Positions 28,972 through 37,349 of a stretch of DNA of 44,825 bases are shown here, piece by piece; the stretch's first letter is position 1, and each line of letters starts with the position of its first letter. The translations under genes were made by a program, and so were the position numbers. Under the pieces are notes generated by a model, which was not told where the DNA came from, did not search any database, and worked only from the letters and a program-made list of their open reading frames with translations. The DNA is from Clostridiaceae bacterium (GTDB lineage: Bacteria > Bacillota > Clostridia > Oscillospirales > Acutalibacteraceae): contig JAEERC010000033.1 in NCBI GenBank assembly GCA_016285645.1, positions 1-44,825 on the forward strand. The letters run 5' to 3'.

Positions 28972-30387
28972 ATGGATGAAAACAAATCCGGCAGCAATTC
29001 AAATGAATTTGATTTCGACTCGTTTTTCAATGATTTCGGCGATTTCGAGTCCTTTGAATCGGAGACGGATAAGCAGGCGGAAAAGCAGGCCCGGAACGCA
29101 ATAACGGGCAACGAGTTCAAGCCCTCAGCCGATTCTGACGGCAGCGAGGGAGTTGAAAATCTCGACTTCCTGAACAGCGGCAAGGATGACATAAAGGAGA
29201 TTATCTCGTCCTACAAGGAATCCGAAACGGAGCCCGGCCCCGATGTGGATGTTTCCGCGGGCGCGCAGAACACCTTCAACATCAACATTTCGCCCACGGT
29301 TAAAAAGCGCGACCGCTCATCGGCGGAATATCAGCCGTCGGTTGCCTTCATACCGGATGAAAACATAAATGTAAACGACATTCCCGGTTATGAGATTGAA
29401 ACAAAAACCACAAAGACCGAAAAGCCGAAGAAAAAGAAACTCAAGAAGGCGGAAATAATACGCAGGACCGTGCTGGCGCTTTCGATTCTGGTTATCATCG
29501 CAAGCGGCGGATATCTTCTGAAGAGTTATGTGCTGGATCCGCTTCTTTCGGACAAATCCTATGAGCAGGCGTCAAGCGACCTTATTGACGACAACGCCAT
29601 TCCCGAGGGAACGCCCCTTACCGAAATGTGGCAGAAGATCAAGGCGCAGTACCCGAACATTGAATTCCCGCCCGAAATGCTGATTAAATACGCGAATCTC
29701 TACGCCGCGAACCAGGATCTGCGCGGCTGGATAACAATAAACGGTTTCGGTATCGATATGCCTCTCGCGCAGGGTAAAGACAACAGCTACTACCTGAAGA
29801 GGGACATCTACAAAAAATGGACCGAATACGGAGTGCCCTTCTTCGACTACAGAAACAAAACCTATTTCTTAAACCGCAACACCGTTGTTTACGGCCACAA
29901 TATGAGATATTCCGACAAGATTTTCGGTATGCTCGAGGACTACAGAACGATTGACGGTTTCAAGAAAGCACCCGTTATCAACTGCAACACCATATATGAG
30001 GACTACACCTGGAAAGTTTACGCTGTTTTCCTTACCAACAGCGAGGAAAAGGACGACAACGGATATGTTTTCAACTACACCTTCACCGAACTGAAGGACG
30101 ACAAATTTATGGAATACATCTCCGAGGTTGACAAGAGAGCGTTCTACAAGACCGGCGTTGATATCCAGCCCGGCGACAGCATACTTACGCTTTCCACCTG
30201 CTGCTACGACTTTGACAGTGCGAAACTCGTTGTTGTGGCAAGGCAGGTACGCCAGGGCGAAAGCACCGATGTTGACACATCCAAGGCGGTCAAAAACGCA
30301 AACCCGAGATATCCGCAGGCGTGGTATGACGCGAACGACAAGACCAATCCCTACGCCAACGACACACGCTGGTACGCAAACGACTGA
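28972..30387 (+). CDS. Class B sortase with long cytoplasmic N-terminal region
   Basis: A 471-residue transpeptidase of the sortase B group. The catalytic triad is visible: His309 in VVYGHNMRYSD, Cys410 in LTLSTCCYDF and Arg424 in VVVARQVR. The single membrane anchor is unusually far in, at about residues 167-188. It is preceded by about 165 mostly disordered, acidic residues and a lysine-rich stretch (KPKKKKLKKAE) that would sit in the cytoplasm; ordinary sortase B proteins start at the anchor. It attaches proteins bearing a sorting signal to peptidoglycan or pili. No substrate with an obvious sorting motif is in this window. AGGAGG precedes the ATG. Confidence 0.9.
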   Translation: MDENKSGSNSNEFDFDSFFNDFGDFESFESETDKQAEKQARNAITGNEFKPSADSDGSEGVENLDFLNSGKDDIKEIISSYKESETEPGPDVDVSAGAQNTFNINISPTVKKRDRSSAEYQPSVAFIPDENINVNDIPGYEIETKTTKTEKPKKKKLKKAEIIRRTVLALSILVIIASGGYLLKSYVLDPLLSDKSYEQASSDLIDDNAIPEGTPLTEMWQKIKAQYPNIEFPPEMLIKYANLYAANQDLRGWITINGFGIDMPLAQGKDNSYYLKRDIYKKWTEYGVPFFDYRNKTYFLNRNTVVYGHNMRYSDKIFGMLEDYRTIDGFKKAPVINCNTIYEDYTWKVYAVFLTNSEEKDDNGYVFNYTFTELKDDKFMEYISEVDKRAFYKTGVDIQPGDSILTLSTCCYDFDSAKLVVVARQVRQGESTDVDTSKAVKNANPRYPQAWYDANDKTNPYANDTRWYAND

Positions 30388-34114: not shown

Positions 34115-35001
34115 AAAAGTATTCTTCGGCTATAATCGGGCACATAACCCTCGATTCCAACACCGACCATCTTGACAACACTGTTGACATAGTAGGCGGC
34201 GCAGTTATTTATTCCTCGGCGAGCGCTCACGCTCTCGGCCACAGGGTGGCGGCCGTTACGAAGGTTGCCAAAGCGGATGAGAACCGCCTTGAGCAGTTCG
34301 TAATACCGCAGGAGGATATTTACTGCGTGTTCTGCGAAAAATCGACTACAATGGCTAACAAATACTTCACGCCCGACAAGGAAAAGCGCGTGTGCCGCTG
34401 CTCGAGCAAGGGCGACCCGTTCACACTGGACGACATTCCCGACATCGATGCCGAAATCTATCACCTCGCGGGTCTTGTTTACGGTGATTTCAACGGTGAA
34501 ATAATCAAGGCGCTCGCGAAAAGAGGACCGCTCGCAGTCGATGTTCAGGCGCTTCTCAGGCATGTGAGCGACGACGGCTCGATGTATTTTGAGGACTGGA
34601 GCGAGAAAAAGGAACTGCTTCCGCTCATAACATATCTCAAAACGGACGCGGCGGAGGCGGAGATTCTGACGGGACTTACCGACAGATTTGAGGCGGCAAA
34701 ACTGCTTCACTCCTGGGGAGCCAAAGAGGTGTGCATAACGCACAACACCGAGGTTCTCGCCTTCGACGGCAAAGAGTTTTACACCTGCCCCATCCGCGCG
34801 CGCAATTTAAGCGGCAGAACGGGCAGAGGCGACACAACCTTCGCCGCCTACATAAATGAGCGCCTGAGCAAGGGTATAAAGGAATCACTGCTTTACGCTA
34901 CCGCGACCGTATCGCTCAAAATGGAAACACCCGGTCCGCTCAGATGCGAAAGAAAAGACATTGAAAACTACATTGACGAGTTTTACTCCGATGTGAAATA
35001 A
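34111..35001 (+). CDS. PfkB-family carbohydrate kinase
   Basis: A 296-residue ribokinase-like kinase. It has the N-terminal IGHITLDSN region, a substrate lid, TDAAEAEILTG in the middle and the ATP-site signature GRTGRGDTTFAAY with catalytic base Asp241. The family phosphorylates sugars, nucleosides or cyclitols. Translational coupling to the PI-PLC-like gene makes an inositol- or polyol-type substrate conceivable, but this is only context. It is followed by a strong terminator. Confidence 0.85.
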   Translation: MKKYSSAIIGHITLDSNTDHLDNTVDIVGGAVIYSSASAHALGHRVAAVTKVAKADENRLEQFVIPQEDIYCVFCEKSTTMANKYFTPDKEKRVCRCSSKGDPFTLDDIPDIDAEIYHLAGLVYGDFNGEIIKALAKRGPLAVDVQALLRHVSDDGSMYFEDWSEKKELLPLITYLKTDAAEAEILTGLTDRFEAAKLLHSWGAKEVCITHNTEVLAFDGKEFYTCPIRARNLSGRTGRGDTTFAAYINERLSKGIKESLLYATATVSLKMETPGPLRCERKDIENYIDEFYSDVK

Positions 35002-35018
35002 ACAATAAAACGGTGAAT

Positions 35019-35050
35019 GCCCGGCGGAAATGATTCCGCCGGGCTTTTTA
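35019..35050 (+). terminator. Terminator of the methyltransferase-PLC-kinase unit
   Basis: An 11-bp GC-rich stem (35019-35029 / 35034-35044) and a T run. A second small hairpin follows at 35067-35073 / 35078-35084. Confidence 0.9.
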
Positions 35051-35084
35051 TTATGCAAAACAAAAAGCGGTGGAGAACCACCGC

Positions 35085-35340
35085 CTGAAAGCCAATATGC
35101 TTATTTTTGATATTTGAACTCTGTGCAAGTTTTGCCTATATGCGTCCACATGAGATTCCGGTTCCACAAATCAGCAAAAACCATGTGCACAGTGTTTTCA
35201 AATACGGTATATTCGGACAACTCCGGAGGTTCCGGTTTATTCCGGATCAAAGCGGGCGGGAAACCGGTTTCTGCCTTTCGGCAGTATCCCGCCGCTCATA
35301 TTCCGAATAAACGGTTGCCCGTAATATGATAAATTAGTAA
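35085..35340 (+). other. Gene-free region with duplicated leader and hairpins
   Basis: No convincing gene. A possible promoter (TTGAAC 35114-35119, 17-bp spacer, TATATG 35137-35142) opens onto a sequence that resembles the 5' leader of the zinc-finger gene read on the other strand (35137-35165 against 36098-36070, 25 of 29 bases identical). Downstream are stems such as CTGCC/GGCAG near 35270-35285 inside a larger GCGGG(C)GGGA/TCCCGCCGC pair. It may be a remnant of a duplicated gene start, or a small RNA. Confidence 0.45.
35137..35165 (+). repeat. Leader repeat, copy A
   Basis: 29 bp, 25 identical to copy B at 36070-36098 in the opposite orientation. Similarity continues with gaps to about 35215. 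Confidence 0.7.
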
Positions 35341-36015
35341 TTATCTACCTACGAAATCCCCGAAGATTACGGGAACAAGGCTCTCAAAGAAGTAAGCAAC
35401 GCCTGAGTCGCCTGCAGACTGGAATACTTCCTGGAGACCGGATTCTGTGAATACAGACATGAATACTTCAACGATGTAAGCGAAAACGCGTACAACTGAA
35501 GTGAAGCTGTTGGTGGGTACGTTGAGGTTGATACCCATAACGTATTTGTCGAACTGACGCATGATAACATCCCATACGGTGCCTTCGCCGTGGTTGGCAG
35601 CGATATGGTTGTTGTAGTCCTCTATGCTGGTTGCGATGTAGTTGCAGTCATCATAGGGGCAGGGAATAGCGTTGTCGGGATGAGTGTGAACCTGATCGAT
35701 GTGAGCTGCAAGATCGGCAGCGTTTTCGAAAACGAGGTCACATTTGTCGCATTTGAAGACTTTCGCTTCGGGAGCGTTGTCGGGATTCTTTTCGCAAACT
35801 GCTTCATGCTTTGCAAGAGTAGCGGCATTCTGGAAATAGTCACCGCAGTAACCGCACTGAACATAAGGGCAGCTTGAAATGTGTGCTTCATAGGAAGCGT
35901 CGCTTGTGAAAGCAGTACCGCACTTGGGGCATGTGCCGCCGGCTGCGAAAGCAACAACAGCAAACGAAGAAACAAGCGCGATGGAGAGAACAATTGCTAA
36001 GATTTTTCTTTTCAT
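35341..36015 (-). CDS. Secreted protein with four C2H2/C2HC zinc fingers
   Basis: A 224-residue protein with a Sec signal peptide (MKRKILAIVLSIALV, cleavage near Ala24/Ala25). Four finger motifs follow, all with the eukaryote-like 12-residue C-to-H spacing: Cys29/Cys32/His45/Cys49, Cys54/Cys57/His70/Cys74, Cys89/Cys92/His105/His110 and Cys119/Cys124/His137/His142. The linker aromatic/leucine positions of C2H2 fingers are present. Residues 150-224 form an amphipathic, rather hydrophobic tail (SVVRVFAYIVEVFMSVF). Since it is exported, DNA binding is unlikely; metal-stabilised protein interaction is more plausible. I know of no named family. It is divergent from the LytTR regulator across a 608-bp gap. 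Confidence 0.8.
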   Translation of the reverse strand: MKRKILAIVLSIALVSSFAVVAFAAGGTCPKCGTAFTSDASYEAHISSCPYVQCGYCGDYFQNAATLAKHEAVCEKNPDNAPEAKVFKCDKCDLVFENAADLAAHIDQVHTHPDNAIPCPYDDCNYIATSIEDYNNHIAANHGEGTVWDVIMRQFDKYVMGINLNVPTNSFTSVVRVFAYIVEVFMSVFTESGLQEVFQSAGDSGVAYFFESLVPVIFGDFVGR

Positions 36016-36069
36016 GGTTAACCATACCTTTCTTACCGTAATTGTAAACGGTGATTTTTGTTGTTATAC

Positions 36070-36098
36070 GGAGCCGGAATCTCACAGGGACGCATATA
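36070..36098 (-). repeat. Leader repeat, copy B, in the 5' region of the finger gene
   Basis: Inverted relative to copy A at 35137-35165; 25 of 29 bases match. It lies about 55-83 bp upstream of the finger gene's start codon. Confidence 0.7.
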
Positions 36099-36312
36099 AC
36101 AATTTTTGATTTTTTTGGATAAACGATTTTTCTGCCGCACATTCCACTCACGGCTGTGTCGAATGTCTGTTCGTCTGTCCACTCACTTCTATCACGGCGC
36201 ACTTAGTCAAGGCGCCATAATATTAATTATTATTATATACAGGGGGAGCAAAATTTCAATACCCGAAGTATAAACGGTATAAAAAAAGGATATTCCGTTA
36301 ATTTGGGCGTCG

Positions 36313-36341
36313 TTTCATCCCTCAGTTTTGCATTTCATCCC
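36313..36341 (+). promoter_or_regulatory. Candidate LytTR operator (direct repeat)
   Basis: TTTCATCCC occurs at 36313-36321 and 36333-36341, 20 bp start to start with an 11-bp gap, about 30 bp upstream of the -35 box. LytTR regulators bind pairs of 9-bp direct repeats spaced about two helical turns, so the arrangement fits autoregulation. The sequence itself does not match a known LytTR site. Confidence 0.4.
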
Positions 36342-36371
36342 GATTTTTTGAAATAAATTTGATAAAATCTA

Positions 36372-36399
36372 TTGCATTTCGGCTGAAAAGCGGTATAAT
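36372..36399 (+). promoter_or_regulatory. SigA promoter of the LytTR regulator gene
   Basis: TTGCAT (36372-36377), 16-bp spacer, TATAAT (36394-36399). It predicts a leader of about 215 nt. Confidence 0.7.
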
Positions 36400-36426
36400 A
36401 TGTCTGAACCCGGATTTCCGATATTT

Positions 36427-36492
36427 GTAAAGGTGGTTAACTTTACAAAAATATGATTATGTGTGATTTTGTGTAAAGTATAAATACTTTAC
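36427..36492 (+). repeat. Paired GTAAAG/CTTTAC palindromes in the leader
   Basis: GTAAAG at 36427 and 36473 and CTTTAC at 36441 and 36487. Each motif recurs at exactly 46 bp, forming two stem-loops (36426-36432 / 36441-36447 and 36473-36480 / 36485-36492). They could be operators or RNA hairpins controlling the regulator. Confidence 0.5.
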
Positions 36493-36623
36493 TTTCCTTT
36501 AAATAAAGGGTTTTCGGGCTTTTTACGGGGTGGAAATGTTAAGTTTTTTATGTTTACAATTATCGTATTCCCGTGATATGTCTCCCCTTGTCACCCATAT
36601 ATAATATTGTATAGGAGATTTTT

Positions 36624-37349
36624 ATGAAAATACTTATTTGCGACAGCGATCTGGAGTCAATAGCGAAGCTTGCCCAGATAATCAGGAACAAATATAACGA
36701 AAGCGACCTGCATACCGACCTGCTTATTGAGGCGACGCACACGCCTGAGGAATTTCTCGGCGCTCTCAATACGGCGGAGCTGCCTTTCGATATAATCTTC
36801 ACCGACATCGCCCCCGGAGGCGAGCCGGGCATTCCCGTGGCTCTTGTTGCGAAAAACCGTTTTCCCCAAACGCAGATAATTTTTTTCAGCGCCAACCCGA
36901 AGCTTGCCGAACTTATTTATGTTGAGATGCAGCCCTACGCTTTTATCAACAAACCGTTCAACGCGGAAATAGTTTATCACCACATTGACACAATCGCTCA
37001 GAAGCTCAGCGGCGAAATCAAGACGCTGGAACTTTTTTCAAACAGGCAGACTTATAAAATCGACCTCAAGCGCATAACCTACATTGAAAGCGACCGCAAC
37101 AAAATCACCGTGCATCTTGTAAGGGACAGTCTGACCGCCATATCGACCCTCAGGGAAATTGAAAAATCACTTGACGAAAATTTCATTAAATGCCACAAGA
37201 GTTTTATTGTAAACCTCGCGTACATCATAGGTGTTGAAAAGGGCGACTTTCTGCTGGCGACCGGCGAGAGGGTACCGATAAGCCGCGCGAACCTCACTAA
37301 GAGCAAATTCGATTTTATGATGTACAAGGGCGGAGTGAGCAATATCTGA
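36624..37349 (+). CDS. Orphan LytTR-type response regulator
   Basis: A 241-residue regulator of the AgrA/ComE/LytR class. The receiver domain (1-122) has acidic residues Asp7 and Asp9, phospho-acceptor Asp61 in DIIFTDIAPG and Lys in INKPFN. The LytTR DNA-binding domain (about 135-237) has KRITYIESDRNKITVHL and CHKSFIVNLAYI. AGGAG precedes the ATG. No histidine kinase gene is adjacent, so the sensor lies elsewhere or the receiver works without phosphorylation. In Firmicutes such regulators often control peptide signals, bacteriocins or surface proteins. A small amphipathic peptide gene converges on it and a secreted zinc-finger gene diverges from it. Confidence 0.92.
   Translation: MKILICDSDLESIAKLAQIIRNKYNESDLHTDLLIEATHTPEEFLGALNTAELPFDIIFTDIAPGGEPGIPVALVAKNRFPQTQIIFFSANPKLAELIYVEMQPYAFINKPFNAEIVYHHIDTIAQKLSGEIKTLELFSNRQTYKIDLKRITYIESDRNKITVHLVRDSLTAISTLREIEKSLDENFIKCHKSFIVNLAYIIGVEKGDFLLATGERVPISRANLTKSKFDFMMYKGGVSNI

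Follow-up and report, generated by a model that had tools for sequence, protein, structure and literature searches.

Introduction

C2H2 zinc fingers are normally found inside animal and plant cells and are taught as intracellular readers of nucleic acids. In bacteria, the Ros/MucR proteins are described (PMC9779718) as DNA-binding regulators, and Ros as having a single domain of larger size with a spacer of 9 residues. Two other described systems are relevant to the locus reported here. The icaR mRNA of Staphylococcus aureus has a 5'UTR and a 3'UTR that pair by a 7-nt motif covering the Shine-Dalgarno site (PMC3868564), and invertons are reported near surface genes of gut bacteria (PMC11892184). 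No exported bacterial C2H2 protein was described, by title or opening of the abstract, in the open-access literature searched.

Here we describe P0001, a predicted exported four-finger protein encoded in a window of 44,825 nucleotides (the whole stretch of DNA that was analysed), together with its relatives and the inverted repeats that bracket its gene.

Results

The gene and the parts of its product were located as follows.

35341 to 36015, minus strand: P0001 open reading frame, 224 aa, ATG start, predicted exported four-finger protein
35944 to 36015, minus strand: signal peptide, residues 1-24, AFA/AGG cleavage, read from the sequence and conserved in relatives
35869 to 35931, minus strand: finger 1, residues 29-49, C2HC, from the motif pattern and AlphaFold
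35794 to 35856, minus strand: finger 2, residues 54-74, C2HC, from the motif pattern and AlphaFold
35686 to 35751, minus strand: finger 3, residues 89-110, C2H2, the best Pfam match, from Pfam, the motif pattern and AlphaFold
35590 to 35661, minus strand: finger 4, residues 119-142, C2H2 with C-x4-C, from the motif pattern and AlphaFold
35344 to 35580, minus strand: C-terminal helical hydrophobic tail, residues 146-224, of low pLDDT, aligning with the tails of relatives

The initial annotation had described a signal peptide followed by four C2H2/C2HC fingers; both were borne out at exactly the residues first given, and the 12-residue spacing from the second Cys to the first His was confirmed in all four fingers. 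The signal peptide reads MKRKILAIVLSIALVSSFAVVAFA and is followed by AGG; in an alignment of 31 relatives, A24 of its A-x-A end was invariant and A22 nearly so. The profile search that had been proposed gave a match to the Pfam zf-C2H2 family (PF00096) well above the cut-off (53.8 versus 25.2 bits, E = 1.6e-14), and 29 of the 31 aligned family members also matched at E≤0.01. The 200-residue mature protein, with a pI of 4.5, contains four motif matches; when it was shuffled 20,000 times there were no matches in 19,826 shuffles, one in 174 and never two. Among 1,499 open frames of at least 80 aa in the window and 400 kb of other sequence, P0001 alone had two or more matches. The 400 kb came from two further genomes of the genus, G021 and G020, as 20 stretches picked so as to exclude the finger genes known to lie on those contigs; the figure is therefore a background rate and not a census.

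Structure prediction had been suggested as a test that could count against the fingers; finger-like folds were predicted. AlphaFold, run with an alignment of four orthologs, gave four ββα units in the finger region at a mean pLDDT of 78.3. The full-length model was poorer (mean pLDDT 58.5), and the tail was modelled as helical at low confidence, with pLDDT mostly below 50. The best PDB matches by fold (Foldseek) were C2H2 arrays, CTCF first, and those by sequence were CTCF and ZNF568; the low TM-scores of the Foldseek matches probably reflect flexible linkers.

Three other orthologs of P0001 were identified: L072 (MAG Tb.RUG.68, Clostridiaceae), L073 (MAG RGIG2708, Clostridia, goat omasum) and L074 (MAG RUG13231, Ruminococcaceae), with 60, 61 and 52% identity, respectively. 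We take RUG in these names to denote rumen genomes. Conservation of the Cys and His residues, the other proposed test, also held: all 16 zinc ligands (16/16) were invariant among P0001, L072 and L073, with the L072 and L073 proteins entering the alignment as rows from G030 and G013, and L074 kept 12/16, with finger 1 incomplete and finger 2 rearranged. The spacing of the Cys pair of finger 4 varies, with C-x4-C in P0001 and L072 and C-x2-C in L073 and L074.

Two neighbouring genes in the window were of particular relevance to the locus.

28972 to 30387, plus strand: sortase-domain protein, syntenic in L073 and L074
36624 to 37349, plus strand: response regulator with a LytTR domain, divergent from the finger gene

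The neighbourhood consists of the sortase, a methyltransferase, a pfkB kinase, the divergent LytTR regulator and an HflX-like GTPase, the last named by eye; it is retained in L074 and in part in two others, on the pfkB side in L073 and on the LytTR side in L072. Since the window encodes a sortase-domain protein, the organism has a wall-anchoring enzyme of its own. The LytTR response regulator, which is kept as the divergent neighbour in L072 and L074, is a candidate regulator of the finger gene. Palindromes of the form GTAAAGT..ACTTTAC lie at 36425-36448 and 36473-36492, between the LytTR gene and the promoter-like site described below; they have counterparts in the three orthologs and are possible operators.

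The distribution of the family was examined at several taxonomic levels. A search of 60 genomes with P0001 gave matches in 23, its own included, all within the genus. A signal-peptide-plus-finger profile built from 18 members gave whole-model matches in at least 35 of 45 genus genomes at E≤1e-9 and in at least 37 at E≤1e-5, the matches behind the latter figure having been inspected in all genomes but G032; the tally of 45/45 for this profile includes signal-peptide-only matches, which were left out of the counts. Among 200 genomes of the taxonomic family, whole matches at E≤1e-9 were present in just the three genus members and in none of the other 197, with at most 34 candidates scored per genome as against up to 150 in the genus search. 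Three family genomes outside the genus matched only up to model positions 29, 33 and 36. PF00096 itself matched in 33 of the 45 genus genomes at E≤0.01, some of the matches being phage-like proteins that had no signal peptide, in 4/295 genomes of an order sample (E≤0.001) and in 3/398 of a phylum sample (E≤1e-4), the own genome being included in both; in the PF00096 proteins from outside the genus that were read by eye (L070, L071, L201 and L202) there was no signal peptide, the picture in L069 being less clear. In the samples searched, the predicted exported-finger family has so far been seen in one bacterial genus.

Small phage-like proteins of the same genus (L045, L050 and L051, classified by eye) carry a single C2H2 finger at the C-terminus and lack a signal peptide. 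They look like a separate kind of protein and are a possible source of the finger. An ortholog scan of viral contigs gave no relative, and a viral origin of the family was rejected.

The relatives were collected as 56 open reading frames (ORFs) by a rule of our own, which takes in L069, a locus outside the genus. The family plan is a signal peptide, one to four mostly acidic fingers, a helical tail and, often, an LPXTG-like anchor. The strict finger motif was present at least once in 47 of the 56 ORFs and absent from nine, and an anchor-like end of the TG..hydrophobic..KK type was present in 32. The window group has four fingers and an unanchored tail, a second architecture joins fingers and a helical tail to the TG-hydrophobic-KK anchor, a third consists of short forms with one to three fingers, and in a fourth (L031, L035 and L138) the fingers are followed by a longer domain with an FF..FF helix at its end. 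L052, by eye a large surface-type protein, has one finger and an FF..FF tail.

The tail-plus-anchor profile matched all 45 genus genomes, some by the anchor part alone, and one genome of another genus. The same anchor signal ends open frames of more than 1,000 codons in many genomes; in the own genome a 2,476-codon open frame ends in a VPHTG anchor. Sortases were found in 42 of the 45 genus genomes, including the one inside the window. The anchor tail (LPXTG-like motif, hydrophobic stretch and positive tail) is absent from P0001, which may therefore be released.

These results bear on the possibility that P0001 is a cytosolic zinc-finger regulator with an N-terminus that merely resembles a signal peptide. 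Known bacterial C2H2 proteins, as described in PMC9779718, are cytosolic regulators of the Ros/MucR type, but the A-x-A signal peptide is common to the 31 aligned relatives, many of which have anchor-like ends, and the fingers are acidic; we regard a cytosolic regulator as highly improbable. Judged from its sequence, P0001 departs from a regulator of this type in its signal peptide and acidic fingers. The suggestion in the initial annotation of a job other than cytosolic DNA binding is supported by the genus-confined signal-peptide-plus-finger matches and by the predicted anchor-like tails of relatives.

The charge and spacing of the fingers were determined for 63 fingers from 31 proteins. Net charge was negative in 48 and positive in five, with a mean of -1.7; the pI of the mature protein was below 6.0 in 28/31, and 59/63 fingers had the 12-residue spacing, with a pattern that allowed 10-15. 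Both the acidic fingers and the 12-residue spacing, which is not that of Ros, would fit an extracellular job that does not involve DNA. Extracellular DNA binding, for DNA uptake or for biofilm DNA, could be proposed from the resemblance of the fingers to DNA-binding arrays and from the presence, in G027, G019 and G029, of a PilT-type (T2SSE) gene close to the finger gene. However, the net negative charge of 48/63 fingers argues against DNA binding, as do the low pI values, and pilus-type gene families were lacking in the other stretches compared; this explanation is very unlikely. One ORF separates the T2SSE gene from the finger gene in G029; in G027 and G019 the T2SSE gene is followed by a T2SSF gene. 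The PilT-type loci are L203, L205 and L212.

Metal handling had been suggested alongside protein interaction. On this view, the protein would be an extracellular zinc store or scavenger, buffering zinc in the gut lumen or delivering it to the cell. Each protein has four predicted zinc sites and the own genome encodes two such proteins; furthermore, in G004, G007, G010 and G060 genes for an ArsR-type regulator and an E1-E2 ATPase are no more than about 3.5 kb away from the finger gene, the domains having been assigned by Pfam in G007 only. The other stretches in the comparison gave neither of these two families, however, and zinc is bound too firmly at structural C2H2 sites to be readily exchanged. 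A zinc sink, moreover, needs no strong finger turnover, and we consider a zinc store unlikely. Of the two suggestions, protein interaction is the better fit, since several pairs of close species have strongly divergent finger parts and metal genes are nearby in just four of the compared loci. The loci with the ArsR-type regulator and E1-E2 ATPase genes are L206, L213, L214 and L215. We read the fingers as putative zinc-stabilised extracellular binding modules.

The family is modular, and in several pairs the finger part differs far more than the sequences on either side of it. Between L047 and L048, identity was 100% in the signal peptide, 39% in the fingers and 93% in the tail, and the corresponding dS values were 0.06, 1.96 and 0.34. 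Between L013 and L044, it was 18% in fingers 1-2, 88% in fingers 3-4 and 90% in the tail. In the finger regions dN was lower than dS, and dS was also raised; since dS rose together with dN, these data point to segment exchange under constraint rather than to positive selection or diversifying point mutation. The fingers of L054 and L076 were 88% identical and showed an excess in dS only (1.02 versus 0.35). There was no finger excess in L001/L013, and of three pairs from repeat-free groups, for which the finger-tail border was set at residue 90, two had no excess and that of L019/L096 was small (0.33 versus 0.19). Variant fingers are present in several relatives. One locus, which adjoins two DUF4474-type genes and is shared between genomes, encodes three fingers in G017, two in G002 and two in G011, and none in the own genome (L135, 2734-3228; compared with L216, L217 and L218). 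At this locus, predicted fingers come and go on the same gene.

The P0001 gene is bracketed by an inverted repeat, with the following elements around it.

36052 to 36098, minus strand: upstream repeat arm, 47 nt, within the predicted 5'UTR
35137 to 35183, minus strand: downstream repeat arm, 47 nt, within the predicted 3'UTR
36232 to 36259, minus strand: promoter-like site TTGAAA-16-TATAAT, 11/12, upstream of the 5' arm, a consensus match only
35065 to 35086, minus strand: terminator-like hairpin with a T run, beyond the 3' arm

Of the 56 family ORFs, 17 are bracketed by inverted repeats (score ≥20), which are 27-50 nt long and of two unrelated sequences. Among 346 genes of the window and the 400 kb, a score of 16 or more was reached by the window gene alone (0/345 others). 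The arms in the window are 79% complementary, at the lower end of the 79-83% range of the window group (group 1). The core of this repeat, allowing two mismatches, was present in exactly 4/45 genus genomes, those with a P0001 ortholog, with one copy per orientation in each and nowhere else in them. L072-L074 are almost identical over the roughly 90 nt that precede the start codon, from which the window departs at a few positions. Group 2 comprises 13 genes of the anchored group (for example L203 and L205), of which L088, L089 and L102 carry variant finger motifs only. Its repeat, CTATC..GCTTAARTGATAAC, has arms at -192 to -133 and +34 to +97; a pattern search for it gave any match in 17/45 genomes and a bracketing pair in 14. 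In G061, one repeat pair encloses two finger-type genes. No repeat with a score above 16 was found around the other finger groups. In a set of eight regions, the brackets listed were all weak (35 nt at 71% in L220, 22 nt at 77% in L222, and 20 nt at 80%, A+T-rich, in L135) and were left uncounted.

Several other explanations for the flanking sequence were rejected. The region from 35000 to 36700 gave four Rfam hits at E≤1, all far below gathering scores; one of them (24.5 bits versus 55) touches 8 nt of the downstream arm and none touches the upstream arm. A hairpin in the 5' leader alone had a z-score of -1.48, and 16/200 shuffles folded equally well. A conserved leader peptide in group 2 was set aside, as the frames differ in an alignment read by eye.

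All 17 bracketed genes, the only ones in which this was scored, have a terminator-like hairpin and T run either at the distal arm or up to 70 nt beyond it; a promoter search at L203 gave 9-of-12 sites only. The arms were complementary and paired in the minimum-energy fold in 17/17, for stretches cut 10 nt outside the arms and with predicted transcript ends. In group 2, 344/351 arm cells were paired in the mRNA sense and 314/351 in the antisense. When the distal arms were dealt out among the 13 genes, 344 was never reached in 10,000 trials (mean 333.6), and with the nine distinct arm pairs the observed 237/243 was reached once in 10,000, kinship being ignored in both cases. The sense duplex was the more stable in 12/13 genes of group 2 and in 0/4 of the window group; the antisense duplex was the more stable in all four of the latter, which argues against an mRNA role there. 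Distinct differences between arms were few in group 2, with seven wobble-compatible, four opposite and one other; counted by cells, group 1 had nine versus eight. The sense pairing and the stability of the sense duplex lead us to favour a 5'UTR-3'UTR mRNA stem over DNA inversion for the anchored group. The repeats of the window group may be either an RNA stem or a DNA site.

The repeats could instead be recombination sites, with the finger gene as an invertible or exchangeable cassette subject to phase variation. Such a cassette would agree with the confinement of the window-group core to the four genomes with an ortholog, one copy per orientation, with the second repeat sequence that brackets another group, with the apparently swapped finger segments and with the invertons noted near gut-bacterial surface genes (PMC11892184). 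However, the assemblies gave no flipped copy: in 17/17 assembled copies the direction of the gene is towards the terminator-like hairpin on the outside, although an assembly shows the main form only. The excess of mRNA-sense over antisense pairing in group 2 (344 versus 314 of 351 cells), the mere 79-83% complementarity of the group 1 arms and the lack of a recombinase among the window neighbours scanned with Pfam also stand against a cassette, and we consider it rather doubtful.

Discussion

The explanation that we prefer, and hold to be somewhat more probable than not, is that P0001 is an exported surface binding array of zinc-stabilised, exchangeable fingers, with an mRNA probably controlled by a UTR stem. 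P0001 would be exported by the Sec route and act outside the membrane, where its fingers would fold around zinc in an anaerobic habitat; anaerobic conditions that keep the cysteines reduced probably help extracellular fingers. The four predicted ββα units would form a binding array that contacts an extracellular partner, a protein or another ligand but not DNA, by the faces of the fingers, and the helical tail would keep this array at the cell surface or link it to a further surface component. Sortase would hold those relatives that have an LPXTG-like tail. The finger part would serve as an exchangeable module flanked by a signal peptide and a tail that stay constant. A long stem joining the two untranslated regions of the mRNA, 5' and 3', would probably govern how stable the transcript is or how it is processed. 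Sequence and prediction provide the motifs, the export signal, the fold, the conserved ligands, the restriction to the genus in the samples searched, the modularity and the paired repeats; zinc binding, location at the surface, the partner and the role in the mRNA are inferred from these.

A broader proposal is that this genus turned the C2H2 finger into an exported recognition module that is exchanged between strains, with repeats that either form a 5'-3' mRNA stem or drive exchange or inversion of the cassette; we put it forward tentatively, as possible but not probable. If true, it would represent a bacterial surface system of variable zinc-finger receptors, in which the C2H2 fold is a stable and evolvable extracellular binding scaffold that keeps its ligands while the finger part changes. 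The repeat-bracketed transcripts offer a case in which a long, conserved stem between the 5'UTR and the 3'UTR of a bacterial mRNA can be tested directly.

Like icaR (PMC3868564), the finger genes have complementary 5' and 3' untranslated regions that are predicted to lie in one mRNA. Their arms, however, are 27-50 nt long and end at least 36 nt before the start codon; for the 5' arm, this end is at -36 in the window group and, in group 2, at -133 or further, so that neither covers the Shine-Dalgarno site. As in invertons and phase-variable surface genes, inverted repeats flank a gene for a putative surface protein, but here the pair encloses the whole transcription unit, with the terminator-like hairpin outside.

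With Ros/MucR, the family shares a bacterial zinc finger of the C2H2 type; it differs in its 12-residue spacer, compared to nine residues in Ros (PMC9779718), in having several fingers and in predicted export. The signal peptide, the TG-hydrophobic-KK tail of 32/56 relatives and the LPDTG of the relative L102 are those of LPXTG/sortase-anchored surface proteins of Gram-positive bacteria, but P0001 is without such a tail and the module that would be displayed is a zinc finger. The closest likeness in the fingers themselves is to classical C2H2 fingers (PF00096), such as the CTCF and TFIIIA arrays, with which P0001 shares the C-x2-C-x12-H-x3-5-H/C motif, the tandem array and the predicted ββα fold. 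In contrast to these arrays, P0001 is bacterial, acidic and predicted to be exported, its linkers are irregular, and fingers of its type are joined to a signal peptide and to a helical tail or wall anchor.
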